NCBI GenBank assembly: GCA_030052745.1
Contig: JANBVO010000016.1
Coordinates: forward strand, 648,700-712,699
DNA length: 64,000 nt
Direction of reading: 5' to 3'
Origin: Pleurostoma richardsiae
Taxonomy: Eukaryota > Ascomycota > Sordariomycetes > Calosphaeriales > Pleurostomataceae
The translations under genes and the position numbers were made by a program. Below are positions 8,073 to 39,849 of this stretch, one piece after another. The notes under the pieces were generated by a model. The model did no database searches, was not told where the DNA came from, and was given only the letters and a program-made list of their open reading frames with translations. Every line of letters begins with the position of its first letter. The stretch's first letter is position 1.

Positions 8073-8825
8073 TTAAACCTTCGCGTTGGCCTGCAGGCAT
8101 GAAATAATCAGACCTGTCGACATGACATCTCCAAATATAGAATAAAAGGCAGCGAGAGATGCGTTGTGCTCCTCATCGGTAGATGCGGCATTGCCATCGC
8201 TGACCATGATCGTCTTGTAGTTCAACATCATAGCATCCCGAGCCGTTGACTCGCAGCACACATTGGTGACTGTGCCGGTGATAAGCAGCGTGTCCAACCC
8301 ACGGGCCTTGAGGATATCATGCAGCTCCGACGACCCTTGAATGAAAGCGCTGAAGCGTTGTTTCTCGACTACCAGGTCCTCGGGCTTGACCTCAAGTCCA
8401 GCCCATAGTTCCCATCCTTTGCTACCGCGAGATAGAGCCCCGATACGCTTCGTAGTCCAATGCGGCAGTGACATACTATCTAGGATGGACCATTCAGAGC
8501 CACCCTCTTCTGTCCATATCGTCTGAATCCAGACCACCTTACCGCCAGTGCGCCGTACGGCAGAAGCTAGGCGGTTGACATTTGGCACGATGTCCTGTGC
8601 TGACTTGACGAACGCGTGCGCTACCCCTTCCATCATGAAGGCATTTTGCATGTCGACCACGATCAGCGCGGTCTTAGATGGCTCGAGGTCGTCAAAGATG
8701 TGTTCCTTGCCGCGGCGTGATACCACGCGGTCAATGGACCCCTGGGGGATCGCGATATTGTGCATGTTGACTAGGATGCCACGAGGTTGCCTGAGAGAGC
8801 GCAAGACTACAGCGGGGAAGTTCAT
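8073..8825 (-). CDS. Isochorismatase-fold cysteine hydrolase
   Basis: An intronless frame of 250 residues. The catalytic triad of the family is visible: D58 in VVDMQNAF, K155 in VEKQRFSAF, and C190 in GTVTNVCCESTARDA. The roughly 35-residue insert between Asp and Lys, rich in Trp, Ser and Gly, and the STARDAMMLNY run resemble the RutB / biuret / N-carbamoyl amidohydrolase side of the family rather than nicotinamidase. It probably hydrolyses an amide or carbamoyl C-N bond in the cytosol. It is convergent with the P450 (149 bases between) and starts the enzyme-rich block. The exact substrate cannot be read from sequence. Confidence 0.85.
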   Translation of the reverse strand: MNFPAVVLRSLRQPRGILVNMHNIAIPQGSIDRVVSRRGKEHIFDDLEPSKTALIVVDMQNAFMMEGVAHAFVKSAQDIVPNVNRLASAVRRTGGKVVWIQTIWTEEGGSEWSILDSMSLPHWTTKRIGALSRGSKGWELWAGLEVKPEDLVVEKQRFSAFIQGSSELHDILKARGLDTLLITGTVTNVCCESTARDAMMLNYKTIMVSDGNAASTDEEHNASLAAFYSIFGDVMSTGLIISCLQANAKV

Positions 8826-9193
8826 CGAAGTCTGGTTTATTCCCTATCGCCTCCCAGATGTGGACGGAGATCCGGATTCGGAGGCGTTCGGAAGTTGGCA
8901 TCCGATCGGCGTTCATCGATCGGGCAGGCCCGAAGCACTCCGATGAAGAGGGGCTGGCTGAACATCTTTCGTTATTATAACAACAGCAATACTTTCGTGT
9001 CGTAGCAGAAGATGACCTTGAATTGCCGAGCAGCAATTGCACCTTATATGACCTTTAGCCTTGTATTGTTCAAAAGTTGAAGCTCACTAGCGGAAGAAAT
9101 CATAAAGAGTTCGAAGCAATACCTCTCCTTCCCAAGCAGATCTTCAAGTTGTCTTGCCTTTGGATTCGTCTGCCCGTAGCCGCGACTGCCTCA
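8826..9193. other. Spacer upstream of the isochorismatase-fold gene
   Basis: No gene is seen. It holds the promoter of the hydrolase at 8825 and the 3' flank of the FAD monooxygenase. Several CGATCGG-type palindromes cluster at 8902-8930. Confidence 0.4.
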
Positions 9194-10729
9194 TCACCAA
9201 TAGCCACCTGCTAGTGGAGGCACAGCTACGTCGTCCAGTGAACCAGTGACGCCCTTCCTGATATCTTCCGTCACCTTTGGGAACTGCTCTCGTGCGAAAT
9301 GCAGAGGATCCCAAGGCTTCAACTTAGGGAACCGCTTTTTAGCCCAGAGCTCAGGGTCCGCCTCTATGGTGTCCCAGGGGATCTTATAGAAGGCGTCGCG
9401 GTTCACCTGCCCGCTCCTATGCACCGCGTTGGACCGGTGGTAGCGGATTCTCTGCGCTGCCTCCAGAGCCAGCTTGACGTCCCCTCCGGACTGTTCCAGG
9501 CAGTGCGCCACCGTCACCGCGTCCTCGAGAGCCTGAGACGCGCCCTGGCCCGCGGTGGGCAGGTTAGCGTGGGCGGCGTCTCCGATGAGGATCGTTCGGC
9601 CACCTTCGCTCGTCCACTTGTCTATGGCCGGGCGGTAGACGAGCTTGAAGTCGATGGTGCGCCCGACCGGCGTCACATCGAAGAGGGCGCGGGCGTCCTT
9701 GGCAGTGAAGTAATTGACCCATTTTTCGACATGCTCTCTTTCGGCCACATTGGACCAGGACTCGGTTGACTCCTTATCGTCCTAAGAGGAAGGCAACACT
9801 GATTAGGATCGAAATTTAACGTCCTGGGCGTGACTGCAGGGCTTACTGGATGGATGAGAACCCAGGCAATGTCTTTGCCTTGGTTCCAGACAAACAACAT
9901 CATGGAAAGATTGTCACACATCCAGAACCTGACAGTGTCTCTGTCTGAGTGGAACAGGTGCTGAAGGTCGGGATGACTTCTAGCCTCCTCGCTAGTCTTG
10001 AAGAAACTGCGAAAGACAGCCCAGCCACTTGAGTTTCCGTTTTTTTCTTCGTCGTTGAGGTGGAGGACCTGCTTCCTCGCAATGGACCGGGGCCCATCCG
10101 CGGCGATGACACAGTCGCCCCAGACAGTCTCTCCATTCGACAGAACCACACCTGCTCGATCCTCCTCTTCTTTGTACTCCACCGCGGCGACCCCGATTCT
10201 GGTGTCTTTCACCAGCGTCTTGGTGTATTCCAGGAAGATGGAGTGGATCTTACCACGGTGACCGGCGTAGGTTATGCTGTGCTCCCGCTCGTCCCGGGCC
10301 CATGGAACGTTTGTGAGGAACTTGCCATCAAATTTGCATAGTTCCATGGCCCTGATACGACTGCAACCGCTGTCGTGTATCAGTTGGCCCACTTTACCGT
10401 CGTCCCATCTGTTAATGATGCAGCCGGCATTGGCAAAGAAGTCGAGAATGTCTGGACAGGTTAACACATGCATCTGTTAGCTGATAGGTTAATATGGCGT
10501 GCCTTGCCTGTACGCTCTGCACTGGATTGTATGCCGACAGATGAGGAACGATGAATTCCTTCACGATCCAAGGGAAGAAAAGGGTCTGCTTACCTCCTTG
10601 GTTGTTTGAGTCCGGGTACTTCTCAACGATGGTCACATCCATGCCTCGCTGAGCGCATTCAATCGCTGCACCCAGACCGCCGAAGCCAGCCCCGACAATG
10701 ATTACTTTCAGAGGTTTGCCAACTGCCAT
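9194..10729 (-). CDS. FAD-dependent aromatic monooxygenase (salicylate hydroxylase-like)
   Basis: Exons on the minus strand are 10729-10594, 10451-9847 and 9781-9194, giving 442 residues. The Rossmann motif GAGFGGLGAA follows the start MAVGKPLKVIIV. The second FAD/NAD(P)H motif is AADGPRS, and the third is ILIGDAAHANLPTAGQGASQALEDA. These define class A flavoprotein hydroxylases, which insert one oxygen from O2 into a phenolic ring using NAD(P)H. Upstream frame extension beyond this ATG is not conserved-looking. The 142-base first intron is longer than its neighbours. The gene is divergent from the PLP enzyme at 11441, sharing a 711-base promoter region. Likely it prepares a ring for cleavage by the extradiol dioxygenase at 27279. 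Confidence 0.86.
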
Positions 10730-11440
10730 TTTGCAATGCGCGTGTGCGTGATGAGTATAATTTACTCCTTTTGGTGATGATGTCAACGTGAAGTGAGGCT
10801 GTGTGACTGACGCCGTGAAGATCACCCGGACCTGATATTTCGAAGCGCCTTAGACGGAAATCCGAACATATACATGTACAAATTGACTCTCACTCATAGT
10901 TCCAAGATCAACAGATAAGCCGGTAGCTCCCGCTTGTATCATATCCGAAGCCCCACTACAGTGTTACCAACACATGACCACAGCGGCGAATGACCGCGAT
11001 GCTGCCCGGCCAAGCTGCATGACTCCCACCTCGGACAGTACTCTCACATGGCCGGCCGGAAGAGCTCTCGGCCGGATGGCTAACTAAAATTTGCACTGAA
11101 GTGGCCCCGCCGAGCTGGTGATTTGGTCTGGGCCGGCAAATCGGCCAGTCCTCCGAGATGCCCGACTAGCCCAGAAGATGTAAGGAACGGACTTTGTGAC
11201 CGAATGCTAGTTGGCCGACAGTTTCAGGAGTCCGGGAGCCTAAGGTTAGTTCACTCTCTTCCGCCTAGTAGGCTTTAATCACCGCATTCATTATTTGCAA
11301 CTAAGTGCGTACTTGATCGTATGGTATCATATCTTTCGAGACTCGAACTCCAGTTGCCACACTAACACCGCAAGCATCTCCTAAGGAAATCGACATATCC
11401 ACCTCCTCGTAGCCCACAACGCTATTTCGGCGCCTTCCAC
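10730..11440. promoter_or_regulatory. Shared promoter region, FAD monooxygenase / PLP enzyme
   Basis: This is a divergent intergenic region with no gene. It is rich in GGCCGG, CGGCC and TTGGCCGA elements around 11007-11215 and contains one CTCGGCCG site at 11067-11074. Confidence 0.55.
11067..11074 (-). promoter_or_regulatory. CGGCCGAG motif (reverse orientation)
   Basis: The sequence reads CTCGGCCG on the plus strand. It lies 374 bases before the PLP enzyme start and about 340 before the FAD monooxygenase start. It is one of eight intergenic copies in the cluster. Confidence 0.4.
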
Positions 11441-12916
11441 ATGGCCACGCCGGTCATCGTCGTCGACCAACACACCGGGGTAGAGCACGTACCCAGGTTC
11501 GAAACACTCCAGGTTCACGCAGGTCAGAAGCCCGACTCGGCCACGTTGGCTCGAGGCGTCCCTATCTACCAGACGTATGTGTTCAACTTCCACAACTCAG
11601 CCCATGCTGCACGCCTTTTTGCACTGGAGGAGGAGGGCGAGATTGCTACCCGGACAGGAAACCCGACAACGGCCGTGCTAGAGCGTCGCGTCGCGGCTCT
11701 CGAGGGAGGTGTGGCGGCCATCGCGGTTTCGTCGGGCCAAGCGGCTGTGTTCATGACCATGGTGGCCCTAGCGGGCAAGGGTCAGAACATCGTGGCGACC
11801 AAGCACTATTACCACGGCGCCTACAACCAGTTCAACTTTCTGCTGCCGGAGTTTGGCATCGAATGCCGCGTGGTGGAGGAGACGGCCGAGGCGGTGCGCG
11901 CCGCCATCGATGAGCACACCAAGGCCGTCTACATCGAGACGGTCGGCCATCCCAACTTCAACGTTCCCGATATCGAGTCCATAGCCTCAGCTGCCCACAC
12001 CGGCGGCGTACCTTTGGTGGTGGAGAACACGGTCGGCTGCGCCTACTTCTGCCAGCCAATAAAGCACGGCGCCGACATTATCGTTTCGAGCCTTAGCAAG
12101 TGGTTTGGCGGGCACGGCAGCTCTACGGGAGGCATAATCGTCGACTCTGGGAACTTCGACTGGGCAAGCTCTTCGCGATTCCCCCAATTCAATAAACCGT
12201 GCCCGGGGTACCACGGGCTGAACTTCTCCGAGACGTTTGGGCGGGCGGCGTTCATCAAGCGCATACATGGCCAGATCCTCCGGGATGTCGGCTCATGCCT
12301 CTCACCTTTCAACGCTCAGCAGTTCATTCTCGGCTTGGAGACGCTCAGCCTCCGGTGCGAGAGGCACGCGCAGAACACCATTGCTCTTGCCAAGTGGCTC
12401 GAAAGCCACGCAAACATAGAGTGGGTGTCATACCCGGGACTCCCAAGCCACCCGCATTACGACCTGTCGCTGAAATACCTCCCTCGAGGCGCCGGGGCGG
12501 TGCTAATGTTCGGCATCAAGGGTGGAGCCGACGCAGGAGAGCAGTTGGTCGACAACTTCAAGATGATATCGAACAACCCTGGGTGAGTAAATGCCAACGC
12601 CTCTTCTATATGAAGACTCCCCAGTTTCGTTCTTCAAAATACTATACCCAGCTGTGTCCAAGACTGCCATCTACATTGACGTGAGCGGGTCATGCTAATG
12701 CTAATAAATACTAGATATGGAGATGCAAAGACGACAGCTATGCACCCATGGTCGACCACACATAAACCTATGCTACCGCAAGAAAAAATAGACCTGGGCG
12801 TTGCTCCCGAGATGATCAGGATCTCGGTGGGCATAGAGCATATAGACGACATCGTATTTGATATCGAGCAAAGCATGCAAGCCAGTCCCGCCGTTCCAAA
12901 GCAAAGCAGTGTATAA
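11441..12916 (+). CDS. Cys/Met-metabolism PLP enzyme, O-acetylhomoserine sulfhydrylase-like
   Basis: Exons 11441-12582 and 12715-12916 give 447 residues. The protein begins [13 protein letters not shown], the usual start of O-acetylhomoserine (thiol)-lyases. The PLP lysine is in [16 protein letters not shown], and RTGNPT and VSSGQAA are the substrate/PLP loops. The last exon opens [16 protein letters not shown], the C-terminal signature of this subgroup. Such enzymes make homocysteine or methionine analogues from O-acetylhomoserine and a thiol, or split C-S bonds, in the cytosol. Normal methionine genes are not expected in a catabolic block, so a dedicated C-S or gamma-substitution step is plausible. 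The intron is 132 bases with a GCTAAT branch site. Confidence 0.88.
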
Positions 12917-13506
12917 GACAGGAGCAGGTACATAGCATGCTTATAGGCGTGGAGAAGACAGTTCGTGGTAGTTCTCTAGTCCTAATACCTTTGAGCAACT
13001 AAGAGATAAGATCTTATAAATCAGGGAAACCTCACGAGATCTAGAATGAAGACAAATGAAATAGACTGCATCGGCCCCTCCAAGCGAGAAAGGGGCGAGA
13101 TTCGATAATTTGGATATGTGAGCTACCATACCTAGCTAAGTACCATGAAGAATCAGAAGAAATATGGGACTGTTGATTTTTCTAACATGGATATTTGCAT
13201 GCTCCCTTGTCGTGCCTGCGTAGAGTTTAATTTTCGAGGCTCGCTGCACAGGTCGAGCAGTGTTGTGTACGCTCTGTTCGACACACCCTGGAGAACGGGG
13301 GCAGAGTGGGAATCGCTAAGAAGGCGGGAGCTCGGCCGAATTCCCGTAGTTGCTGAAACGCTTGCGTCTGCCTAAGATGCCCAGAGCGATAGATCTACCT
13401 TAAACCCACAATTCAAGCCTATGGACGAAGGGATATCGATGTCGAAGATCTCGATATTATTCTAAAGCTCGCATATAGCTTCTAACAAAGCAGCAGATTG
13501 TATGGG
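12917..13506. other. Convergent 3' flanks, no gene
   Basis: This lies between the stop of the PLP enzyme and the stop of a minus-strand regulator. One CTCGGCCG copy occurs at 13331-13338, where it is not next to any start codon. No coding frame is convincing. Confidence 0.45.
13331..13338 (-). promoter_or_regulatory. CGGCCGAG motif (reverse orientation), between 3' ends
   Basis: It reads CTCGGCCG. It is the only intergenic copy in the cluster that is not in an upstream region, so it may be a chance match. Confidence 0.2.
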
Positions 13507-16246
13507 CTAAAATATTGTGTCTAAATATGGGAGTCCTTGGTCCATCTGCAGCTCCGCGTCGTTAAACTCGGTCTCCATGGGCATGAAGCCCGAATAGTGA
13601 ATCATGTTCAATCCTCCATCATCCATATCGTAGCCATACGGAAGCTTCGGATCATGTAGGTCATCCGAAACCGGAATGACTGGTGCCGGACACAGTGACG
13701 CCTGTTCGGCAGCAGGTAGGCCGTGAGCAGGACCTTTCCCGATCAGTGTCGGGTGGGACGAGAGACCAGTGTTGTGTTCTGCTGGGACCCTAACAGGTGC
13801 AGAACGTGGCTGGGGCCTAACGCCAGCCGGTCGATCGGACGAATGTCCCCGAGGAACGAAACCAGCGCCTGCACCCTCCAAGGCTGAGGACGACGGCGAC
13901 AGGTTATGTTCCCTCCGGACCCGCTTCCGGAGTGCTTCCCGCCTCGCTGCGCGAGCCTTGTCCAGCAGTCTCATGACAAGACGCCACTGCTGGGGCTTCT
14001 TACGGTTCGCCAACAGCGATGGGTGATCCCAGCGGAGCACAATGATCTTCTCGACGGCCTTCCACGCGCGGGTCGAGTGCTTGTAGAGAGGGTCCATCTG
14101 AAGCCATACCAGGACGAGAGCCAGCGCGTGCCATTGTGTGTAAGAGCTGAAGAGCCACTGCCACAGCCGCGTCCGCGGATCTGTGCGGAGCTCGTGGCTG
14201 ATCTCGATGACCTCGACGGCTACGAGGAATAATCGCTCGCGCTCTTGGTCTGGGCTTCTGCACTTCTCATGCTGTTGTAGAGGGTTGCACCCATGCAGCC
14301 GGATTTTGTGGAAGAGCACGCGAGCAAGCATGACGGTCACCCACTGAAGGGGATTCATTGGCGAGCAGTCTCCGAGAAACCGGCCCCTGAACTGTGTTTC
14401 GCACGCGTCCACCCATGCCGCTCGCTCAGTTGGACTGAGACATGCGTAGCTCTTGCCCGTGCTTCCACAAAGTCTCCTCGAGTCCGATATGCAGCGATAC
14501 ATGTTAGTGATTACGCACCGAACGAGAGTGAAGGTCATTTCGGTCCAGCCCGTCTTCTCCGGCGGGTATTCTACCATAGCCGGATCCAGCTGCGCCTCGT
14601 CAAGGTTCCGAGGTAGCTGGGTGTCAAAGCTGCTGGTCTCTAAGCTGAGTGGTGGAAATCATAATCAGCCTGTTGTCCGTAATGGACGTCTACGGTAATA
14701 CGATGTCACTACTCACACGTTGTATTCGCCCGAGTAATCTTCGGCCGACGGAGCGTCGAGGATGGCAATCTGCCACCAGAGGCGTCGGCGCATCTCCATC
14801 TCGAACTTTGAAAGCCCGAATAGGCTGCCCTCGCGATGGAGGCCGAAGTTTTGAGCCAGACGCATTGCCACGCCAGACAAATTCCAGGACAGACGAGGGT
14901 TGTGATGTCGCAGGAAGGCAAGGTAGAGAGTGAGCGCTTGCAGCGGCCGGATGTCTCCCGTATGTAGAAGCATGGCTTTCTCAAACAGTGTCTCCAGCCC
15001 TCTGCGGATACGCAGCAGGACTGACGCCTGGCTCTCGCGGAAAATTGCGAAACACTCTTCACCGGTGAGACTTGTCACAGCGCCGTAATATATGGAGAGA
15101 TGAACGCAACCGGTGCCATCCGGCAGGTTCGAAAGGTCCAGGGCCCCAAGAAACTCGGCCTCAGATGAGGGCAAGTGGAAGAGCTTGGTCAGGGGCTCCA
15201 CTCTGTCCTTGTATACCTGCCATAGTTGAGCCTTTTGCTCGGACGAAAGACGCAACAGCTTCTCGTTACTCGGGCCAACAAGCGCATAGCGGGTTTTTAA
15301 GAACTGGCCGCCGCTCCCAAACTCGGAGGGTGGGTTTATGGAGGATACCGATTCGTGGTCAAGAGCAGCATGACACCCGACGTCATCTTCGCCATCCGAG
15401 ATTGACTCGTCACTAAACTGGACCTCGAGACATGGGAGCTTGATGTTAGCCTTGACAGTGGACGAGATAGGGCTATGAGAGGGGCCGTAAAGGAGTTCAA
15501 GTTACCTCTGTGCTGACAATATCCCAGAACCACGCCCGCACGTAAGTGTCCCTGCCATGTTCGTTGACGAGCCTCCCTTGGCCCTCGCGATGAGTGAACG
15601 GTAGGCTGATATTTCCCCTCGACGAGCGGTCTGTGGTATATTGATCGGCCGATGACATACTGGTGTGGACCGTATGGCTAATGGGGCAAGCATCGGCTAT
15701 CGTCGCGACCTGTTCGTCCTCCGTGGTTCCGACAATCTTATCACCTCCTGGCTGGTGGTGAACAGGAGAGTGGCGAGACTCTGGAACATTCTCGGAGACC
15801 TTGGTAGGTAAGGTCGAAGCGCTCTGCGGCTCGATATTTCGTACTGCTCTTTCAAGTCTCTGCAGCATGTCTATGAGCTGTGGCGTCACTGCTATCTGCC
15901 CGCCACTGGGCAGGGTGTCGGGGAATTCACATTCACTTCCGATCTTGACGCAGTTATGGCAGGGCTTTTGCTTGTCGCATTTGACCTTTCTTCTGCTGCA
16001 GGTTAGGCACGACCGACGCTTCCGACCCAACCCTGTCGGCAGGGCCCGAGTCAGCGTAGAGCTGGGGGCTGCAGAGGTGGAAGGTGGACCAGCAGAAGAA
16101 TGAGGCGGCGGCGGCGGCGGCAACAGCATTTGTGGTGCCTGCTGCTGCTGCTGTTGATGCGGCTGTCGGAAAGGAGAATCATGATTCTGGGTGTTCCCTG
16201 CTGGCAAATCACCGCCTAAGAAATGACTTGGAATCACTTCACTCAT
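13507..16246 (-). CDS. Zn(II)2Cys6 transcription factor, cluster regulator A
   Basis: Exons 16246-15506, 15417-14717 and 14644-13507 give 859 residues. The zinc cluster C80-x2-C83-x6-C90-x5-C96-x2-C99-x6-C106 follows a low-complexity leader with poly-Gln (31-36) and poly-Pro (43-48). The middle domain has the fungal-specific TF pattern (LTLYLAFLRHHNPRLSWNLSG, then RRRLWWQIAILDAPSAEDYSG). The protein closely parallels the regulator at 20291-23177: same Cys spacing, same intron after STE/HSE in phase 0, and same intron after the EDYS segment in phase 2. The C-terminus is acidic. It is divergent from the LovD-like gene at 16811. Likely a pathway-specific activator. Start is the first ATG of the open frame. 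Confidence 0.87.
16103..16157. repeat. Triplet repeats coding poly-Pro and poly-Gln
   Basis: GGC repeats followed by GCTGCTGCTGCTGTTG lie inside exon 1 of the regulator, on the opposite strand to coding. They encode the proline and glutamine runs and could vary between strains. Confidence 0.7.
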
Positions 16247-16810
16247 CGTCCACTTAGGAAGACCATTGCCTGAGGAAGCTGGGGATCTCGTTTTCCGAAA
16301 GCCTAGGTTGACAACAGCCGGAGACAATGGTAGCTCAGGGAAAATAGGAAAGAACTTTCCAGTTTACAGCTAGAGATGCGCCTTGATCCAAAAGCATAAC
16401 AGCGCAATACTGGGTTCTACCAAATGCAGCGGTAGGCTTCGCATCCCAAGATGGAAGCAGCCTGGGCTAGCTAGCTAATTATCGGCCGAGGTCCCGAAGG
16501 CCCGCCTTCTCCTTCACCCCTTAGCCCGCCTACGAATCCAATTACTTCAAGAAACGGCGAAACGGCGAAACTTTACTGGCCAGAAATGTCTGCATGGTCG
16601 GAAACACGATAGAACGGCGAGTGTGATTCCTAATATCTAGCATCTACCTAGGTACTACCTATAGCCGAGTCAGGCGGCTGTCTCGCCGTTTCCCTCATCC
16701 GGGAAGGGCTTGCTCCCCGATAACGACGAATCCCGGCTTGGTATACCAGCCCCATAAGCTGGACTCTTACTCTCAGTATCAGCGTCAAGGCAAAAACTGG
16801 CTAACATACA
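16247..16810. promoter_or_regulatory. Shared promoter region, regulator A / LovD-like gene
   Basis: No gene is seen. It contains the 9-mer TCGGCCGAG at 16482-16490 and a short direct repeat of AAACGGCG near 16551-16570, with a related AACGGCGAG near 16613. Confidence 0.5.
16483..16490 (+). promoter_or_regulatory. CGGCCGAG motif
   Basis: It lies about 240 bases upstream of regulator A and about 330 upstream of the LovD-like gene. The core CGGCCG is an inverted CGG pair, as bound by many Zn2Cys6 dimers. Confidence 0.45.
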
Positions 16811-18186
16811 ATGTATACCGGATTCGAAGCCACTCAAGACACCTTCACTCAAGATTGGGTCAATGGCCTGCCGGGGGTCGTGCTTGCAGTTACCAATAAG
16901 GATGGTTCGTCATATACCCGTACAACACATGCGAAGTCTCCTGCTTATCATAAGCTAACGAGTTAATGAATGTTCAAAACAAAAGGTATCGTCTACTCCC
17001 GAGCAGCAGGCAGGGAAAAGCAGGATGCAGAACCGCCGATAAGCCTAGACAGCACGTTCTGGGCTTTCTCCTGTACCAAGCTCCTGACTACTATCTGCGC
17101 ACTGCAATGTGTCGAGAGGCGTCTGATAAGGCTTGACGACGAGGTCGGCGGAGTTCTACCCGAGCTGGCAGAATGCAGCATTATCTCCCCAAAGCCCGAC
17201 GGATCATTCAGTCTAGCACCGGCCAAGAATAAGATCACCCTGCGTCACCTGCTCACACACACGAGTGGCCTGTCTTACGACGCCATGCACCCCGTGCTGA
17301 TGGCCTGGCGGCGGTCTCGAGGAGAGATGGCGCTCGTGATGAGTGGTAGGCTCAACGAAGCGTATTCGCTGCCACTGCTGTTCGAGCCTGGGACCAGCTG
17401 GGTTTACGGCTGCGGCATTGACTGGGCGGGGGTGCTCGTTGAGAGGCTCAGCGGCAATATGAGACTAGCGGACTACATGGCGGAAAACTTGTTCAAGCCC
17501 CTTGGGATGAAGAGCTCAACATTTCACTTGTCCGAGAGACTGGATGTCCAGCAGCGGCTGTCCCAGATGTGGGCACGGACTGAATCGGGCATCTTGAAAC
17601 CAATCCCAGGCCCTTACCCAGCAGATGCCCGTGACGATAGCGGCGGGATGGGACTGGTCACGAGCACGGTGGACTTTATGGAAGTGTTAAGGGACCTCCT
17701 GCGTGACAGTCCACTGCTGCTTGAGGAGAAAACCGTTAGCGAGATGCTCACAGCCCAGTTCGACGTCGGCAGTCCTCAGTACGAAGGTTTGGTTTCTCAA
17801 GAGGTGCGTTGTCAACCCACTGGCTGAAGCGCTCTCGTGGTTGTCTAGGTACCATTCACTTATGGGGGTTTCCTTGGCCTCCTTGCGTCAGTGCTGTGCT
17901 TTCTGACGTTGCTTTCTCCCTCTAGGCCCTGCACAAGCAGCTGACTGGAGATGCAAGCGGAGCGCCAGCCGTGGCCTTCGGCCTCGGAGGGCTGGTAGTG
18001 ATGGAGGACGTACCCAACTTACCATCCGGGACGCTCACCTGGAACGGGATGCCCAACATAGGATGGTTTGTGAACCGAGACCGAGACTTGGCGGCTATCT
18101 ATATGAGCCAGGTGCTTCCCGCATCAGATCCTCAAAGTGTGAAGTTGCTCGGTGACTTTTGGAGGGATGTTTTGCGGCCGACATGA
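16811..18186 (+). CDS. Beta-lactamase-fold serine hydrolase (LovD/EstB-like transesterase)
   Basis: Exons 16811-16904, 16986-17803 and 17926-18186 give 390 residues. The class C beta-lactamase nucleophile motif S60-C-T-K63 is present in WAFSCTKLLT. HLLTHTSGLSYD and the YGCGIDWAG tyrosine motif follow, with MGLVTSTVDF further on. Family members hydrolyse esters or lactones or move acyl groups (LovD acylates monacolin J). The first intron uses a GTTCGT donor, so the N-terminal join is slightly less sure. In this block it would cleave an ester, lactone or amide of the pathway substrate. It is divergent from regulator A. Confidence 0.84.
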
Positions 18187-18572
18187 GTGATGCTAGGCAA
18201 AGGATATCGCGAGAGTAAAGAGCCTATCAGGCCCGTTCTCTTTGACCTAAGGGTCGGAGGGTTTTGGTCTTTTTTTCTTCAACAATCCATATCAAGATTA
18301 AAGGCAATTCTCATAACACTGAGTGCAGGTTTCATTGATTATAGGCTCTCTTCCTACGGATGACATCCCACTTCAAATAACTTCCGCGCCATGTCAGAAA
18401 AAGGGTTAAAACTTCGGATCCCCAATGATAAAATTAGTTCTGCGGTAGCTCGTTTGCAGCGTCGAACTCTTGCTCGGATTTTACTCCGTGGGCCTTTATG
18501 CCTTTCTCTGCAACTCTGAATCCGAGAGCTCTATCTCTAAAATGTGCGCCCCAGGCCATTGAAACCGTCGGC
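18187..18572. other. Convergent 3' flanks, no gene
   Basis: This lies between the stop of the LovD-like gene and the stop of the YCII gene. A frame at 18434-18572 runs in another phase past the YCII stop and shows no family features. Confidence 0.5.
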
Positions 18573-25627: not shown

Positions 25628-25635
25628 CGGCCGAG
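25628..25635 (+). promoter_or_regulatory. CGGCCGAG motif
   Basis: The second copy upstream of the amidohydrolase. Its longer context GGCCGAGCATC is identical to the copy at 32549 between the two P450 genes. Confidence 0.45.
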
Positions 25636-25765
25636 CATCCGCCTACACCTGGCCCTTGGTTCCATCTAATCCGCATCTCACTACCAACGAAGTTTTGCAC
25701 GACACGTTTCATTGCATTGTTCTACTGTGGGCCCCACAGCCCTCCAAAGGGGGTTTGCGTAGCTT

Positions 25766-29863: not shown

Positions 29864-30141
29864 GAGCGCTCTCTATCATTGCTATAGGACCCCGACGTTT
29901 TCACTCATCAGTACTACTCCAGACATCTAACATATACTGCGAATATATCAGACGTTATATTGACGAGCAGTGTAGTAATGCCACAATGCGTCTATATGCT
30001 TCTCTATAGAGAACTGGATGGGAACGACCAGAGATTCCAGGCAGAGTTGACCGGGCAGTTTCCAGCAATTGCCAGGGCAGTGGGAAGCATCTATGTTTAC
30101 TGCCATGCACAAGAGACTGCGTAGCAAGGTGTAGGCGTGCA

Positions 30142-32284
30142 TCAATTGGACATAGCAAGAGGTGCTCCCCTGCTGCAAAACATGATTTCCCACTCGGGAT
30201 CAGGAATGACCTGCTTCAAATTAGCCTACACAATGTCCTCTGAGATATGGAAACAGGATGGGATTAGACCGATAGCAGGGAACCGGGCGCGCCTCCACTT
30301 ACCAGTCCTTCGAATTCAATATTCTTGGGTCTTCCACCTCCGATGATAGGAAGTCGGACATCGTACCGCGTGATGAATTCGATGAGCAGCAACTTCAGTG
30401 CCACTTCAGCAATGTAGCGCCCCGGGCACGCGTGCCTGCCGTAGCCCCAGGTCAAGTCCTTCTTGCCAACAGTAACCATCTGATAACTGTTCCTCATACC
30501 CTCGCGCTCGGTCCGCAGCCGGTGATAGCGGAAGCCGTCAAAGGTCTGGGGATTCTCGAAAAGTCCCTCGTCCATGTTGATGGCGCCCGTCGGGAGGACG
30601 ATGCGTGCACCTTTGGGAACGCGCATCCCGTTGGACAGGGTGAGTTCCGACACTGCCTTACGCTGGAAGCTGGCTATTTCTCCGAATTAGACTCAGCAAA
30701 TAAGAAAGGCATTGCGGGTATGAAAGTGGAATGTTCGCCCTTACTCAGATCCGGTGGGTTTAGCCGCTGCGTCTCCTTGATAAAGCTGTCCAGCTTGAGC
30801 ATCTCTGAGAGCGCTTGTCGGCTGATGTGTCCATTTCCCTTTGCGAGTTTCTCTTCTATTTCTTGTCGTAGCTCTGAGATGTATTCGGGATAAGTTGCCA
30901 TGTCCATGAGGCACTGCGTCACAGTGGCGGCCATGGATTGGATAGCGGCAACGATGAGATTGATCTGTGTGATTGTGTGTGCCTCGGCATCCTCGGCGCC
31001 CATATCGCTCTCGGCGAGCCAGTCCAGAAGCGACGGCGGATTGTCGAGGTGCTTGTCTCCATTTGTCCTTCTCTTTCTCAGCGTTTCGGCCACCATGGAC
31101 TTGGCCTCGTCGAAGTGCCGGAGCATCGTTTGCCGCCCGTTGCGATTGACAAAGGGATAAACGACTGGGCGGAGTACATGAGGCCACTTCTTCAACGTCT
31201 CGGTCCACAGAACGGCTGAATTCACATGCTGCGTTGAGATGTCCAGCCAGTGATCGTTTTCTGCCGCTTCAGCACTGTGGAAGATCCTTGCCGAGACGCG
31301 TGACACCAGACGCATTATATGAGGATAGGGCTTGATGGCGGTGAAATCTGTTGTTCAGGTGACCATTCAGTACGATCAACTCCTTTCTTAAAATCGATGA
31401 ACTCCTAGGATTTGAATATCTAATGATGCGGATAGTTGCTAACTCACCTTGATAATCATCGAGCGGCCAGTGGTCGCGAGCCACCTGTTGGATGACCGGG
31501 ACATACTGCGCTATCATATCAAGTTAGCAACTTGTTGAACGAAAAAGGCTGCAGGCTTTTCGCTTTATGTGCGTATACTCACGGAGGCTCGGGTTAAGCT
31601 TCTTGTTGACAATGTTAATTTCAATCTCCTTAAGGTTCCCAACTTTGGTGTATTTCTTGAAACTAAACTGCGTCGTAGGAAACCACAGTTAGGCGGCTAG
31701 TCACTCTAGGCCATGATACGATAGCACATTACCTCCTCTTCAAGAAAGGCACTGAAGCTCAAGCTTTTCTGTCCTCCAAGACCATCTAGGAGGCCTAGCG
31801 GGATTACAATGTTGGTTCCTAAATCCAAGTCAGCTCAACCTCCTTGCCAAAGGTGAACTATACATTCGGGTGATAAATGCAAAGACATTCAACAGGAGAT
31901 TGCTCGGGACTCACCTTCCGTTGTTGTAAGACCAAACACTTGGCTCCCGAACTGGCCAATTTGCACATAATCAGTACCGCTGCTAATGATGCAGGTGATC
32001 GGAGAAAAGGGAGGTGTCAGGCTCAACTGCACCTTCTTGTAACCATTCATGAGCAGTTCCCGAGTGTTCCTCATGTAGATATCCTGTCTTTTCTTCTTAT
32101 TTGGGATTTCTTCCTCCATCGCGATCGGCATTTTAGGCATCGAGTCCGGAAACAAAAAAGGCCAAGCAAGCAGCAACGCCAAACCAAGGGCCCCAAGACC
32201 GGCCCAGCCTGTCACGGTAACTGCATTCTGCTGAAATTTGGCCCTGAGAAGCGGGTAGTAGACATCGAACTGCGAAGCCGACAT
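30142..32284 (-). CDS. Cytochrome P450 (ent-kaurene oxidase-like fungal type)
   Basis: Seven exons are proposed: 32284-31915, 31818-31733, 31667-31583, 31510-31448, 31347-30745, 30673-30303 and 30210-30142, giving 548 residues. All phases agree. The N-terminal anchor is GLGALGLALLLAWPFLF. The ExxR helix is FIKETQRLNPPDLTSFQRKAV, the PERF-like segment FDGFRYHRLR, and the haem loop WGYGRHACPGRYIAE, the pattern of fungal P450s related to ent-kaurene oxidase. The last exon reads VIPDPEWEIMF, typical of the family end. The last acceptor could be CAG at 30211 or AAG one codon earlier. ER-bound; substrate unknown. It is divergent from the next P450. Confidence 0.84.
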
Positions 32285-32960
32285 GACTATCACATACGGA
32301 CTTGAGGTGCGTCGGCAGTGGTGTAATTGCTTGGTCCTGAACTACGGATGCCTCGATTTAAACTAAGGAACGAGAGTCTCCGCAGTGTCCAGCTCGCACC
32401 ACGTCTACGAATCTAGGAGCTTACTACGCCATACAAAAAGCTAATACGATACTATGGAGGACTTGGTTCTCTCGGTCGCACATGGTATCCTGTAGCCTGA
32501 AGCTGCCGGCGCTGGCGCCGTGCACGAACTCCGGGATCACGGGAATTTCGGCCGAGCATCAAGCCAAGGCCAATAACCTCACCGTCAGTGGCGTTGGTAG
32601 ATCCGGTGTATCTTGACTGCATGCCCGAAAAGGGATCTTCCGATCAACCTTCACCGATAAGCCTTGTATCTTTTATCAAAACGGGAATAGAGGCGACCAA
32701 TCCGGCTTTGGTAGGACATGGAATCGCTCCCTAGGTTGAACAGACATCATCAGTAACTCCAGCCCCGTAGCAACCGAATACTCGAGCGGTCCTCTCCCCC
32801 ACTCCCGAAGAGGCCTGTTAATCCAGGATTCAAGCCGAGTCGTAACAAACAGTGATACTACTTGATATCTGCCTGCACTCTTGCAAAGTTTTCCGGCATC
32901 GAAACGGTGTCGATCTCGTCACAATCACGACCATCGCCAGACACCAATTGTCAGGACACA
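32285..32960. promoter_or_regulatory. Shared promoter region of two divergent P450 genes
   Basis: No gene is seen. TCGGCCGAG lies at 32548-32556, near the lower middle of the region. Confidence 0.5.
32549..32556 (+). promoter_or_regulatory. CGGCCGAG motif
   Basis: It is 265 bases upstream of the minus-strand P450 and about 405 upstream of the plus-strand P450. Confidence 0.45.
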
Positions 32961-34776
32961 ATGATCTCCTTCTGGCTACCCATCATTGGGGCAGCGGCTC
33001 TTATCATTTTTGGCATCGGTTGGATTTTGGTAGACTATGCCCGAGTGCTTCGCCTCCGGAATCGTATGCCTCCTGGGCCATTTCCACTGCCCCTGTTTGG
33101 CAACATCTTCCAGATTCCCCCGGTCAGGCAGTGGGAGAAGTTTGAGGAATGGTCATTAGAATACGCCGATCCGGTGATTACGATATGGGACGGACATACT
33201 CCCGTCATCATCTGCAATGACGCCTGGTCCATGTCTGAGCTTTGCGACAAGCGAGCCAACATCTACTCGTCCAGGGCCGTCAAAACCCTGACCGGCAAGG
33301 TCTTCGGCCTCAACAAGTTCAACCAGGCGGGACTTGCATATGGAGAACAATGGCGTCTGCACCGCCGGTTAACTGTAAGCCGTCACGTCGGCGACCCTTG
33401 CTTTCATTCTGGCTTGGTTTGCTAACATTATTCCGTGTTGACTGCAGCACTCTGCCGCCAACGCTCAGGTCGTCCAAACGTATCGCTCGTTTCAAGCAAA
33501 CGAGGCAAAGCTTCTGATTGCCAGCTGCCTCGACGAGCCGGACAGGTTCGTCGACAATGCCTTGCGCTTCACCGTCTCCATCGTATCAGTCATTGCCTGG
33601 GGCCGACGCATCGACGGGGATAACGACAACGTGCTCAAAGTTGCCCAAGCCTTCGTCGGCAGCGCAAACCTTGGTTTCCCGGGCAAGACGTACACTGAAG
33701 CCATTCCCATCCTTGCCGATATGCCCAGTTGGCTCAACCCGCTGCCGCAGCAGCTGAGGCAGCTAGCCACTACATCTAACAAATACTTCTATGCTCTGTC
33801 CCTCGAGGGAGCAGGCGGGACGCAAGACAATTTTGCCAAGCGCCTGCTGCGTGAGAAAGACGAACATGGCCTCTCCAAGGTTGAGATAGCCAACTTGACC
33901 GGTAATTTCATTGGTGCTGGAGTCGACACCACAACCAGCACAGTTCTTAGCTTCATCCTAGCCATGTGCCTCAACCAGGACGTCCAGACTAAGGCCCATG
34001 AGGAGATTGATCGCGTTGTCGGCCAGGCCCGCTATCCGGACTGGTCCGACGAGGAGAAACTGCCATACGTCGGTGCCATCGTCAACGAGACGCTTCGCTG
34101 GCGGCCGGCTTTTTGCCTTGGTGGCCCGCCGCACGCTCCCACTGAGGACGACGTCTACCGTGGGCGCCTCATCCCCAAGGGTACCGCAGTTATCGGCAAT
34201 CTGTACTCTATTTCCCGGAACCCACGCGAGTACCCGGAGCCTCAACGGTTCATGCCGGAGCGCTTCCTTGATGAGTTCCCGCGCCCAGCGTATCCGAACA
34301 AGAGGGGCCACAACACGTTCGGGTGGGGCCGGCGCGTGTGCAGTGGTGAGGCTCTGGCGCAGCAGAGCCTGTACTTCACTATCGCATCGCTTCTTTGGGC
34401 ATTCCATATCCGCCCGGGTCTTGATGAACAGGTAAGCCATGAGTGTCTCCCGCCGAACTTCATTTACCATGACGAACACTCGAGGCTGAAAGCCCCGACA
34501 ATTTCCGGATCAGAAACTGACGAGTTGATTAAACTGATACAGGGACGAGAAGTCCATCTCGATGCAAACGCCTACACTACCACCCAAGTGAGCAGGCCAA
34601 AACCCTTCAAGGTGCGGTTTCTGCCCAGGAGTGAAGGTATCACGAATCTGCTGCGAGAGGCTGCTCGGCACGCCCGCGAGGATTTGCGCGTCTATGATTC
34701 AGAGACCAATGTCACCTACGAGAGTGCCCAGTCCGTGTCGTTGGACATGCCAACTGCCACAGTTGAGAAGCACTAA
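32961..34776 (+). CDS. Cytochrome P450 (CYP2-like fungal group)
   Basis: Exons 32961-33374, 33448-34431 and 34543-34776 give 543 residues. An N-terminal anchor (IIGAAALIIFGIGWILV) precedes the Pro-rich hinge MPPGPFPLPLFGN. The I-helix is GNFIGAGVDTTTS, ExxR is ETLRWRP, and the haem loop is FGWGRRVCSGEALAQQ. The last intron (GTAAGC...ACAG) is 111 bases, a multiple of three without a stop, so reading through it would add 37 residues. The spliced join GLDEQ-GREVHLDANAYT matches the usual C-terminal form better. After the conserved KVRFLPRS end the protein carries an extra tail of about 45 residues. ER-bound monooxygenase; substrate unknown. Confidence 0.86.
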
Positions 34777-35268
34777 AAGGCCTTCTCTCTAGCGAGGATA
34801 TGATATTGAATGAGTCATAGAGACGAACGGTGTGCGAGCAGATTCCTATTCAGATCGCATAGGCGCGGGTGGAAGGAAAATAGATCGTCAACATAACCTG
34901 TCAGTCTGTGTCTAATCATGCATCCCTGAGTAGAATGCCCTCCCAGCCCCTGGGGCTTTCCTGGCATGTAGATAGGTGTCCCGAAATTACTGATACAAGC
35001 AATGAGCTCTCTCTTTCCTGAGAAGTCACAAGGCCAATAAATTATCTGCTTTCTTTATCTGAACTTCAAGTGACTTCCTTAGTTCATTCTATTTCAGCAG
35101 GTCTAAAAACTTTATCACCTATCACAGTAGATGAACGTGCATAACTTGCGACCGCTCATCAAGAATCAGTGTCTCTTTGTCGTTTTATGTTATATACGAG
35201 AACCTAATCCAAATGAGATGTATTCTCGGGGGAATAAGTACACTAGGGTCTAACTCTCATCCGGATGG
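34777..35268. other. Convergent 3' flanks, no gene
   Basis: AT-rich spacer between the stops of a P450 and the Rieske oxygenase. Nothing is recognised. Confidence 0.5.
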
Positions 35269-36666
35269 TTACCAAGCAAGACCCTCAATACCGCCATTTG
35301 AAGGGTTGGCGCCGGAAGCGGCCGCGCACACACCGCGACAAAAGGCTTCGTCCTCTGCAGTGGTATCCGAAGTGCCCTTGATGTTGATCCTTCTTGCAGG
35401 CCACCACTCCTCACCCCGGTTCTTCTCCTCGGCGACGTGGTCGTGAAGCATTTTCTTGACCAGTCCCCCTACATATGTGACGGCCTCCTCGACGTCTGGA
35501 TGAAATGGTCCGACTGTGAAAGTGTCACTATTGAGGTTGTGCTGCGCCCCATTAGCAAGCCACTTATCCTCGCCCTCCACCTGCGCGAAGAAGTCGAGCT
35601 TCTCCTTCAGCTCCTCCGGAGTGGCCGATTTAGAGCGGTAGACTTCATAGCGCATGAGACTGGTAGTCGGCGACGTTGGAACGATGGACATCATGTAGAA
35701 GAAGACGGGCCTGCCCGGGTCAGCATCTTCCCTTAGCACCAGTCCATGGAGGCTTCCTTTGACTCACGTCAATGTCACCGACGCATTCGGGTACATGTAG
35801 GTCGGGCTCACATCACTAGCACGCTCCTCACCGTCGGCACCCAGGTGCTGTACGTAGTGTTTGTGGCAGCCATACACCATCTTCTTATTATTTTTGAAGA
35901 ATGGTGCCAGGCCAGGGTGAGCAGTAGGACAGTGGTAGCACTTCAGGACTTTGTCAGTTGCCTGCCTTCAAGTCGGATCCGCAAGGTGTTGAGGTGTCAC
36001 TAACCTCGTTGTAGTTTTCAATTAACGTCTTCCAGTTGAACTTGCCCTCCATCGACCAGGTATGGTCATACTCATAGTTGTTCAAATCGAAGTTTGACAG
36101 CCGGGGTTGTTCGTCGACTCCGCCGAACTGCTCTTCCCAGGCGATCGTGGGCTTTTCGGCGGCATCCAGGTTAACCCACAAGAATCCTAAACGGTCGACA
36201 TGAGTGTGGACTTTAAATAGGGAGTAGTTCTCCTTGTCAAAGCCCTCAATCTTGTCAAACCGAGGAGCTTTGGCCAAGTTGCCATTCATGCCATATGACC
36301 ATCCTGCAGTTGATTCATTTTATTAGAGGCCAGCAATCCTTTGCCGGTATATGACGCGCTTCAAAGAGGGCGTGATTGTTTCTTACCGTGATACTTGCAG
36401 GAAAGCACCATAGCTTTCCCCTCATCCTGGTGAACGATGGGGAATGCTCTATGGCGGCAGACGTTTAGGAAGGCATTTATCTTCCCGGCACGATCCTTGA
36501 TCACAAAGAAGGGATAGCCGGCTATCTCATACCGGGCATACTTGCCCGGGTCACCAAATTGTAGCGTGTGAGAAATGAGGATCCACGACTTGCTGAAGAT
36601 GGCACGCCGCTCCAGTTGATAGAAGGCTGGTTCGCGGTACCACGAGGCTGGCAAGGTGCTCTGCAT
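35269..36666 (-). CDS. Rieske non-haem iron oxygenase, large subunit
   Basis: Exons 36666-36387, 36303-36005, 35940-35768 and 35710-35269 give 397 residues. The Rieske [2Fe-2S] motif is C70-R-H72 ... C90-K-Y-H93 with the standard 17-residue gap, continuing HGWSYG. The mononuclear iron site is [17 protein letters not shown], with two His. The nearest relatives by pattern are choline monooxygenase-like and fungal ring-hydroxylating oxygenases. For the last splice I used the acceptor GGGCAG at 35711 (57-base intron with CTGAC branch site); the alternative AAG at 35732 would leave a 36-base intron. The join NASVTLT-PVFFYMM fits the family. No reductase gene is in the window. It is divergent from the MFS gene. 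Confidence 0.86.
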
Positions 36667-37677
36667 GTTGACTAGCACAATCTTTCAAAGACTCAAGTGA
36701 AAGAACGGCAATTGATTCAGATGGAACCGCCGGTATGCCGTTCTTCATGCGACGGGCGTGTCCTGAATTCATCATAACACAATGTGCTGATGAACGACTT
36801 GCATGAGATAATGCACCTCAAGCCCGGACGCACCGTGGCAAAAGCATAGAGGAATCGCCACAAGGCAAACCCAGTCCCGGCCGCCGGGATCATAACGCAC
36901 AATACCCCCTGTTCGCATTCTCCATGGTGTCGGCCGAGGAATCCGGCGCGTGGGGCCTCGGGCACGTCGGGTTGTGACGAGTTGAGAATGCGAGAAGCCC
37001 GTGACGGCAGTATCAAGTACCTTCGAATGATTGGATATGCATTAATTAGCATATGCTTTGGCTGGAGGCGGTGATTTCGTATCTTTTCCCTTGCGACGTC
37101 TCTAATGCCGTTTCCCGCCGACTAGCGATTTACTTGGCAGGAATCCTGAAGCGATCTCAGACATCTGTGACACTCTCTACCGTATCTCCACTCTCCACTT
37201 CACAGCTGCGCTTGTGTGGCTAGCCTTTGCCTAAATGAGAGACCTGATAAGCACTCTCCACTCACTGGGGCGCCTTATCTCGACATTATGCCTCTAGGGG
37301 CTGAAGGTGCGCCCCGTGGTTGGCGTGGACCGCTGGTCATTTACCGGCCAGAGGGAGAGATAACGGCTGCGACGGTATGTACGTTATCACCAATCCTCTG
37401 CCGCTTTCGATGGTTTGCCCAGCAAGACCAAGAGCAGCAGCACAACCACCCTCGGGCGGATTGCAACAAGTCCCTCGCCACCTCAGATGCCCGTTGGCAA
37501 AACACACAAATACCTGCTTGCCTCTTCACTCTGCCGGATGGAGGCCTTGAAGTCGATTATCCAGCCAAGTTATCTGAGACTATCCATACCACTTTGCTAC
37601 ATCTCCCACTGCTGTTCGTCCTTTATCAGCGAACCCTCATTATCATCAAGGTCTCATCGCGACTGTACAATTCCAAA
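36667..37677. promoter_or_regulatory. Shared promoter region, Rieske oxygenase / MFS transporter
   Basis: No gene is seen in this 1.0-kb divergent region. TCGGCCGAG lies at 36930-36938. Confidence 0.5.
36931..36938 (+). promoter_or_regulatory. CGGCCGAG motif
   Basis: It lies 265 bases upstream of the Rieske oxygenase start, the same distance as the copy upstream of the P450 at 32284. Confidence 0.45.
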
Positions 37678-39849
37678 ATGTTAGGACCCAAGATGCTAAT
37701 TGGCCTCACCATGTTGGGCACGATGGCCAGCATATGCAACTTTTCTCTTGATGCTGCCATGATCAATAGTATCAACATAATGGACTCATTCTACGAATGT
37801 AAGTGTCCTTAAACTATTGACCTCTTGATACTGTTGTTCCTCCGTGGAGCTATAGCAGTGCGGCAGGTGACTGACAGGACCGACCAGACTTCAAGTTGAA
37901 TTCGACTTACACAGGCCTCAATGTGTCTCTGATCTACATTGGCTCTGTTGTCGCCGTCCCCTTCGCCGGTCCACTGCTCGACAGGTTGGGGCGCAAGAGA
38001 GGTCTTATTGTTGCTGCTGCCTTGGGTCTTATAGGGGCCATTCTTCAAGCTGCTGCACATGAAAGTTTGTGCATTCGATTCTCACTTCTCGCCCCTAATA
38101 TTCCCGCTTCGCTGTCCAGTTCTCCACGATTCATCCCGTCACCTTCTCTTCTTAAGCCTTCGGCATATTCAGAGGGTTAACTAACAACTTCTCAACAGAG
38201 GCCCAGCTTCTAATTGGACGCTTCGTGCTAGGCACCTCGTTCATCGTCGCTGGCGCCGGTGGGCCCTCGTGGGTGATGGAGATAGCTCCTCCAAAGCATC
38301 GCAGCATTATCACGAACAGTATGCTGGCATCTCTGCCTATAACTGGCACAATTGGGTCTATCATTTACTTCGGCATCTGGGACAGCTCGTCCAATTGGGC
38401 ATGGAGGGGTGGTCTTATGGTCTGTATAAACTCATATCTCATTACAATCCAATGACCATGGACCTTGCGTGGCTGACTTCGATTCTACAGAGCGAGCTCG
38501 TCGGACCTGCAATCGCCTTGATTGTTCTACCATTTACGCCCGAGAGCGTCCGATGGCTGGTCTCTCAGGGTCGAGAGGATGAAGTGAGTGGCCAGCCTAG
38601 ACAGACACTGGCCACAGCTGCTGGAATAGAAGAGTCACTAACATGAATTACCACAAAGGCTCTCGCTACCCTCGTCAGACTCCGAGGAGTTAGCCAGGAC
38701 GACCCTGAACTCGTGGCCGAGTTTAGCCAAATTAAGCATACAATTGACCACGAGCGAGCGGTGGTGTCAACAAAGTCTTGGAGACCTCTTATTAAGCCCG
38801 GTATGTCCAGCCCTCTTGAGTTCAATCTTCGTTGAACTATCAAGCAAGCCTGCAAGAGAGCGTTCTCCAGGGGCCCATATGCTAATCACAATGCATCGCT
38901 ATATCAGCCCCCAACTTGCGGCGGTTTCTCATCGCCACACTTTGTAATGTGTTCTGGCAAATCAACGGGACCAACTTCATGCCGTAAGTCAACTGCTCGT
39001 CCTCACCGACCCACGATGTCCCGTGTACTTAAAACATATAGGGGCGGGCTACGCGCTAACGTGTCACATCGAAGGTACTTCTTTACTATAATTATCCAGG
39101 CAGCTGGCGTCACCGACGTCGCGCTTTTACTCAAAATCAACATTGGTCTGTGTGCATGGGCGACATGCGCCAATATGTGTGGAATCGTCCTCATTTCAAC
39201 ACTGGGGAGAAGAGCCATGTTCCGTGAGTCTCTCTCGATTTTCCGCTACCTTCCATCTAAGAGTTCTCCTCTCTTCACGTACGGCTAGTTCGACAGCTAA
39301 TACTCTGGCGCGTTCGGTACAGTGCTTTGCACGCCCGTATTGGCCATCTCATTTGCTGTGCTCGCCGCCCTCCAGCATTCCATCGACACAACTCACGAAA
39401 TCCGCTTCGGCATCGGCGCTGTGGTCATCTGCTTCATTTTCCAGTTCGCGGCCTTCGCATCGTGGATGATCCTGAATTTCTCGTATCCGTCCGAGATCCT
39501 GAAGTACACTCAGCGAGCCAGGGGCGTGGTCGCTAGTCAGGCCGTCGGCTACGCGATCGGAGTCATGATGACATACACAACGCCCATCGCGATCGAGAAC
39601 ATCTCATGGAAGTATTACGCCCTGAATGCAGCCTGGAACGTCCCCATGGTTGCAGTGATCTGGTGGATGTTCCCAGAGACCAAGGGGAAAACTCTGGAAG
39701 AGATCGACACCATATTCGAAGGTGCTGCGGCAGAGACCTGGCTGCATGACACCGATTACCAGGTTATTGATGGGAAGCCGATGACAAAGGCAATAACAAC
39801 GGAAGCTGGCACTTCCCCGACCAAAGCTCCGTCAGTAACCGCCAATTAG
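37678..39849 (+). CDS. MFS transporter, sugar porter family
   Basis: Eight exons: 37678-37798, 37888-38064, 38199-38419, 38491-38583, 38659-38800, 38908-38983, 39075-39223 and 39323-39849, giving 501 residues, the usual size. Marks of the sugar porter family include DRLGRKRG after helix 2, IGRFVLG in helix 4, the central PFTPESVRWLVSQGRED, and FPETKGKTLEEID after the last helix. The motif before helix 7 reads FWQINGTNFMP, changed from the usual QxTG form, so the substrate may not be a sugar. It sits in the plasma membrane. As the only transporter in the block it is the likely uptake route for the compound broken down here. Confidence 0.87.

Follow-up and report, generated by a model that had tools for sequence, protein, structure and literature searches.

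Can a fungus open aromatic rings by meta-cleavage, and are genes for such a route held together in one place? The question is raised by a 64,000-nucleotide stretch of Pleurostoma richardsiae (contig JANBVO010000016.1, positions 648,700 to 712,699). This stretch, here called the window, is the final 64 kb of a 712,699-bp contig labelled C45. The meta-cleavage pathway has been regarded as uncharacterised in fungi, where only intradiol cleavage had been described (PMC8896014, PMC10512348). At window positions 8073-39849, 15 adjacent genes include a two-domain extradiol dioxygenase (EXD) beside an FAH-fold hydrolase (FAH). On balance, these genes seem to form a fungal degradative cluster: a front end would lead to a catechol, the extradiol enzyme would open the ring, and an FAH step would follow. 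This reading starts from the observed gene content, intact gene models, families and catalytic motifs, and from the way in which extradiol, FAH and hydroxylase genes recur together at other loci; from these we infer the substrate, the order of the steps, the purpose and the co-regulation.

The host genome (39.4 Mb, 136 contigs) has spliced genes and encodes Zn2Cys6 and HET-domain proteins, as a filamentous fungus would. Gene models were based on sequence signals and homology; a home-made gene finder was trained on the window and other stretches of the genome, and GT-AG introns were then fitted manually. Families were assigned with Pfam and NCBIfam, and the closest solved structures were taken by bit score. 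The 15 genes, in order along the window, are as follows.

8073..8825, minus strand: isochorismatase-fold hydrolase (ISO), RutB/cysteine-hydrolase-like; PF00857, 2.9e-40; D58, K155, C191; nearest solved structures 3irv (cysteine hydrolase) and RutB.
9194..10729, minus strand: flavin adenine dinucleotide (FAD) monooxygenase of the MAK1-like group, 3 exons; PF01494 (FAD_binding_3); best solved match 7cp6, 'MAK1-like monooxygenase', 204 bits, then CtdE, 179 bits.
11441..12916, plus strand: pyridoxal phosphate (PLP) enzyme of the O-acetylhomoserine sulfhydrylase family, 2 exons, K220; Cys_Met_Meta_PP; TIGR01326, 562.7 bits against a cut-off of 495.1.
13507..16246, minus strand: Zn2Cys6 regulator (TF1), 4 exons; PF00172, PF04082.
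16811..18186, plus strand: LovD-like transesterase/esterase (LOV), 3 exons, SxxK at 60-63; PF00144 (Beta-lactamase); LovD is the best solved match, 202 bits.
18573..19087, minus strand: small YCII-like protein (YCI), 3 exons, introns chosen manually; PF03795, a weak match of 17.8 bits, below the cut-off of 24.
20291..23177, plus strand: Zn2Cys6 regulator (TF2), 4 exons; PF00172 on exon 1 (a single exon was scanned).
23441..25357, minus strand: ATZ/TRZ-type amidohydrolase (AHY), 4 exons; H79xH81, H242, H274, D322; PF01979; PRK08204, 254 bits, below the cut-off of 391.
25766..26774, minus strand: FAH-fold hydrolase, 3 exons; lid His/Glu (NYxxHxxE), ExE and Asp motifs; PF01557, 221 bits; nearest solved structure 1gtt, 181 bits.
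27279..28475, plus strand: two-domain type I extradiol dioxygenase (EXD), 3 exons; ligands H169, H242, E293; PF00903 (Glyoxalase), 24.4 bits, cut-off 20.6; HpaD, 3.8e-10.
29015..29863, plus strand: short-chain dehydrogenase (SDR); PF13561, 2.8e-40.
30142..32284, minus strand: cytochrome P450 (P4A), 8 exons, haem Cys458; PF00067.
32961..34776, plus strand: cytochrome P450 (P4B), 3 exons, haem Cys436; PF00067 on exon 2 (a single exon was scanned); best solved matches are CYP2 enzymes.
35269..36666, minus strand: Rieske oxygenase alpha subunit (RIE), carnitine/glycine-betaine monooxygenase-like, 4 exons; PF00355, PF00848 (Ring_hydroxyl_A); best solved match carnitine monooxygenase, 138 bits; GbcA, 137 bits, below the cut-off of 670.
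37678..39849, plus strand: major facilitator superfamily (MFS) transporter of the sugar-porter type, 8 exons; PF00083 (Sugar_tr), 255 bits.

All 15 genes were modelled as intact, spliced genes, and none has internal stops. Fourteen models are complete from ATG to stop; the FAH model is one base short of its stop codon, which ends at 25766. A sequence-only reading of the window had described a compact 15-gene cluster, and the models bear this out. Its family calls were also placed as claimed by Pfam and NCBIfam, with a good match for the LovD-like enzyme; the YCII call is weak. The 1gtt structure, the closest solved relative of the FAH-fold enzyme, is a 4-hydroxyphenylacetate isomerase/decarboxylase of the HpaG/HpcE type. 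All 11 enzymes checked have the expected catalytic motifs, and both regulators have Zn2Cys6 motifs; the patterns were written after the sequences had been read, and are a record of presence rather than a blind test. The roles assigned to the motifs, including NYxxHxxE, ExE and Asp in the FAH-fold enzyme, are those generally known for these families. Among the 14 pairs of adjacent genes, six are transcribed divergently (p = 0.018 for six or more under random orientation).

The cluster was also said to have no backbone synthase, and this was confirmed: none was found among the family matches of the 15 proteins. Stretches of ketoacyl synthase were absent from C45, versus 29 elsewhere in the genome. 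No AMP-binding stretch was found on C45, with 14 of 56 candidates scored. For terpene cyclases and prenyltransferases, the negative result covers the 15 cluster proteins, as no genome-wide or flank search was made for these families.

The extradiol dioxygenase is the central enzyme of the set. Its sequence is weakly linked to solved structures (3b59) and to HpaD. Two further copies are present in the host genome, on contigs C24 and C104. A prokaryote collection was scanned with an alignment of the three copies, and at least 560 relatives were confirmed. The best 80 were kept, which represent 79 loci; 78 of these are bacterial, and one (L042) was set aside as fungal-looking. The facial triad of two His and one Glu (H169, H242, E293) is kept in 78/78 bacterial relatives. 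The same holds for all seven active-site positions (H169, H223, H242, E246, H274, Y283, E293); E293 and Y283 lay inside the search patterns, and H169, H223, H242, E246 and H274 outside them. L042 is without five of the seven positions only because its open frame ends upstream of them. The AlphaFold model of a bacterial relative (L053, 35% identical to EXD; 18-row alignment) has a predicted local distance difference test score of 86.8 and a two-domain type I extradiol fold. Structural matches of this model are 3b59, 1mpy and 1f1v, and the best ones include catechol 2,3-dioxygenase and homoprotocatechuate dioxygenase. Judged by its sequence and by the modelled fold of this relative, EXD is a two-domain type I (VOC) extradiol dioxygenase. 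The four fungal sequences formed one group (100/100) in an 82-row tree; the branches of the tree are long, however, and two of these sequences are incomplete, so it does not give the direction of any gene transfer.

Analysis of the bacterial neighbourhoods showed that the central genes recur together. Of the 78 bacterial loci, 60 carry an FAH-fold gene no more than 8 kb from the extradiol gene, 28 carry an FAD aromatic hydroxylase in that range, and 25 carry both. The FAH-extradiol distances were obtained for 59 loci: 45 within 500 bp, four at 0.5-2 kb, six at 2-4 kb, and four beyond. These distances were taken from stop-to-stop frames and are lower bounds; one FAH locus was dropped, as its frame spans the extradiol gene. 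At least 7.5 kb was available on both sides in 58/79 loci, and many loci are closely related, so the counts are not independent. The sole control for linkage is the crowding of FAH genes within 500 bp instead of an even spread over 8 kb. Eleven of the 28 bacterial hydroxylases were scanned, and all 11 scored above the cut-off of the MhpA-like subfamily.

The bacterial sets of MhpA-like hydroxylase, type I extradiol dioxygenase and FAH-fold enzyme (e.g. L070, L109, L115) thus resemble the fungal cluster in having the three genes close together. The extradiol enzymes are 31-39% identical to that of the cluster, and the FAH-fold enzymes 28-42%. However, the bacterial hydroxylases are MhpA-like, whereas that of the cluster is MAK1-like, and most other cluster families are rare beside the bacterial genes. 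Within 8 kb of the extradiol gene in the 79 loci, AHY, P450 and LOV were found in none, RIE and PLP in one each, MFS in six, and SDR in eight; ISO was found in none by the neighbourhood scan and in one by tblastn. Owing to this rarity (0-1 of 79 loci), the Rieske, amidohydrolase, isochorismatase-fold, P450, LovD-like and PLP genes look like a fungal front end. As a separate observation, a Pseudomonas extradiol-FAH pair (L044, 451-6145) lies beside a FUSC/AaeAB-type efflux pump, an OprD porin, and a 'MetA-pathway of phenol degradation' protein.

A second, smaller linked set is present in the host genome itself (C24:648000-663500; L007, L025, L028, L039-L041), with its genes spread over about 10 kb. 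Pfam confirmed an FAH (PF01557), a regulator (Fungal_trans), an SDR, an extradiol enzyme, an FAD_binding_3 enzyme, and an NAD(P)H-binding protein. The view that hydroxylation, extradiol cleavage and FAH hydrolysis form the functional core, which the sequence-only reading had proposed, is therefore supported by the sequences of the bacterial neighbourhoods, the C24 set and the conserved ligands. The same reading had called this a standard meta-cleavage route, which is valid for bacteria but is not established in fungi (PMC10512348, PMC8896014). Further pairs of an FAH and an FAD gene, separated by about 2-11 kb, occur on C46, C62, C76 and C126, and to judge from these pairs the host fungus may be rich in aromatic-degrading sets.

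The locus L042 (NYXK01000232.1) is filed under a deltaproteobacterial metagenome-assembled genome (MAG), and itself looks fungal: the GC content is 49%, the extradiol gene has an apparent intron, and there is a Zn2Cys6 regulator. One neighbour is presumably Snu23-like. This contig looks like contamination of the reference MAG. Its extradiol gene lies beside FAD hydroxylases and the Zn2Cys6 regulator, and it shares only these with the cluster. L042 was considered as a fungal sister cluster and rejected: its own contig is 64,512 bp long, and the contigs that carry the assembly's three FAH matches have 105,915, 27,296 and 18,313 bp.

A possible shared regulator site was found in the cluster promoters:

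11067, 16483, 19315, 25585, 25628, 32549 and 36931 (within 10730..37677), no strand assigned: CGGCCGAG, 7 copies in 6 of 9 cluster promoters.

This putative site is an unspaced CGG inverted repeat with two extra bases, and was chosen from all 8-mers. The seven copies fall in 5,984 bp of cluster promoters; four copies lie in the remaining 25.8 kb of the cluster, three in the rest of the window, and nine in 150 kb of other sequence. Nine-window random draws, which may overlap, matched this result in 4.25% of 400 trials from the 150 kb of genome and in 9.5% of 400 from intergenic sequence. A common site for the cluster regulators is thus suggestive only.

The proposed pathway could proceed as follows. 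The P450s, the Rieske oxygenase, the LovD-like esterase, the amidohydrolase and the isochorismatase-fold amidase would strip a larger aromatic compound, which probably bears an amide or amine, to a phenol. This phenol would become a catechol through the FAD monooxygenase, perhaps aided by a P450 or the Rieske enzyme; being MAK1-like, the monooxygenase could work either on the ring or earlier in the route. EXD would then open the ring adjacent to the hydroxyls, and the FAH-fold enzyme would hydrolyse or decarboxylate the ring-fission product to small acids. The SDR might handle an alcohol or aldehyde, transport of the substrate or product might fall to the MFS porter, and the set might be switched on by one Zn2Cys6 protein or by both. 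A bolder version is conceivable, though doubtful: a complete fungal meta-cleavage pathway, in which a bacterial-kind extradiol-FAH core is joined to a fungal front end dismantling a nitrogen-containing plant or microbial compound. In this version, catechol formation by the Rieske or FAD enzyme would follow the loss of nitrogen through the amidohydrolase and isochorismatase-fold enzymes. The compound is perhaps of the indole type, because the monooxygenase is MAK1-like/CtdE-like.

A plant defence chemical, the example given by the sequence-only reading, is a conjectural substrate. The case for nitrogen in the substrate is plausible but weak, as suggested by the two amide-type hydrolases and the CtdE-like monooxygenase. 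Sulfur, at which the sequence-only reading had hinted from the PLP C-S enzyme, now appears weaker still, since this enzyme is a paralogue of the homocysteine synthases of the same genome. FUB7 is its best solved match (525 bits over about 420 residues). One exon of a paralogue on C54 scores 388 bits against FUB7 over 221 residues; C-C bond formation of the FUB7 kind was rejected for the cluster enzyme, as this homocysteine-synthase paralogue is closer to FUB7 per residue.

Several points weigh against the degradative reading. The cluster FAD enzyme is MAK1-like rather than MhpA-like (44.7 bits on a model of the MhpA-like subfamily, against a cut-off of 390), and its gene is 16.5 kb away from EXD, so the catechol may be formed by another enzyme. 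A Rieske reductase was not found among the cluster's 15 genes. The C24 FAD enzyme was not matched when the cluster FAD enzyme was searched genome-wide, and the C104 extradiol copy has no FAH or FAD among the genome-wide matches listed, which also missed the C24 FAD enzyme. In the L042 assembly there are three FAH matches, and not one could be placed on the contig with the extradiol gene. As proof of a regulon, CGGCCGAG was rejected, because the random draws equal it often enough to leave it borderline. LovD-like transesterases act in biosynthesis too.

This last point leads to a rather unlikely alternative, a biosynthetic tailoring cluster. The opened ring would then serve as a building block, to be closed again by reaction with an amine or turned into an ester by the LovD-like enzyme, and the backbone would be supplied by an amino acid or from outside the cluster. 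LovD is indeed the best solved relative of the esterase, the two P450s and the MAK1-like/CtdE-like monooxygenase resemble tailoring enzymes, and PLP-family enzymes such as FUB7 can serve biosynthesis. However, the likeness to FUB7 is common to the C54 paralogue, C45 carries no ketoacyl synthase, and the extradiol gene in bacteria accompanies FAH and MhpA-like genes, a catabolic set. We therefore infer a catabolic rather than a biosynthetic direction.

Two adjacent sets for separate pathways are still less probable: the right-hand genes (about 23.4-39.8 kb) would open the ring, the left-hand ones (ISO to TF2) would be unrelated to them, and each set would have a regulator to itself. The two regulators are paralogous (36% identity across 496 columns), and the bacterial and C24 sets have the FAH, extradiol and FAD genes (C24 also the SDR) without ISO, PLP, LOV and YCI. 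Against this division, the FAD enzyme sits in the left half, and copies of CGGCCGAG occur in promoters from 11.1 to 36.9 kb, which is a weak argument. A chance neighbourhood of metabolic genes near the contig end, with no shared function, would agree with the borderline motif evidence. It is very improbable, since all 15 consecutive genes encode an enzyme, transporter, regulator or small YCII-like protein, and the core linkage recurs in bacteria and on C24.

A degradative cluster would agree with an accepted class of fungal gene clusters, among whose types are those of salicylate hydroxylase, pterocarpan hydroxylase and aromatic ring-opening dioxygenase (PMC10735191); MAK1 is a pterocarpan (maackiain) hydroxylase (PMC8120277). 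Like the present cluster, which has a MAK1-like monooxygenase, such clusters have aromatic-processing enzymes, a transporter and regulators side by side. They differ, in a comparison by description only, in that here 15 genes surround a two-domain extradiol and FAH pair. The 15 genes are consecutive, within the six or fewer intervening genes of the spacing rule for degradative clusters (PMC10735191); that work uses 13 core query genes, and here the identity of the core genes was judged by family resemblance.

The hxn nicotinate genes of Aspergillus nidulans likewise form a dedicated aromatic route, with the monooxygenases HxnX and HxnV, a ketoreductase, a regulator and an amidase (PMC9304392). 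There, however, the ring is opened by HxnM, a cyclic imide hydrolase, and an extradiol-FAH pair is not described in the available part of that paper. The benzoxazolinone (BOA)-induced cluster FVEG_03387-03405 of Fusarium verticillioides shares an FAH, a C6 regulator, an FAD-binding protein and a sugar-type porter (PMC10512309). It differs in a cupin protein and an aldehyde dehydrogenase; the terms Rieske, isochorismatase and glyoxalase do not occur in PMC10512309. Kinship with either cluster was rejected, as the ring-opening enzymes differ in the parts described.

Extradiol enzymes are less common in fungi (PMC12388069). The class III enzyme EpCDO3 of Endoconidiophora polonica cleaves the ring in vitro (PMC8896014), and the extradiol-annotated genes of A. 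niger were dispensable on gallic acid, with one of them induced (PMC10512348). Catechol 2,3-dioxygenase activity in Fusarium and Graphium is mentioned in a 2025 paper, along with an unsuccessful amplification of the gene (PMC12366324). Single fungal genes of this kind have been seen before, since a 'trihydroxytoluene oxygenase', a 5-carboxymethyl-2-hydroxymuconate isomerase and a biphenyl-2,3-diol 1,2-dioxygenase are listed, by annotation only, in Scedosporium (PMC5716253). A lead on the Rieske protein (PMC6625701) concerned a yeast two-hybrid partner only, and led nowhere. No described fungal cluster with the present gene combination was found in the open-licence PMC literature, in agreement with the sequence-only reading, which had not recognised one.

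Since meta-cleavage is uncharacterised in fungi, the cluster is a concrete candidate to test, with a named gene set, intact active-site motifs, a likely downstream hydrolase, and candidate regulators. With a second, smaller version in the same genome, the open question of fungal meta-cleavage turns into a problem of gene deletion and enzyme assay.

Some features of the flanks were also observed. To the left of the cluster lies a Zn2Cys6-looking frame (about 3650-5280, judged by eye), and immediately to the left a P450 (window 6436-7860, plus strand), which we take to resemble the CYP61/ERG5 group. Just to the right, a 581-codon frame (window 41096-42841, plus strand) has a good coding score and no Pfam matches at 1e-5. 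Further on, at window 52001-62000, the G+C content rises from about 0.51 to 0.59-0.64, and the contig ends 2 kb beyond. The genes in this stretch are intron-poor, and include a regulator, a phosphodiesterase, a flavin reductase, and an ornithine cyclodeaminase-like gene.

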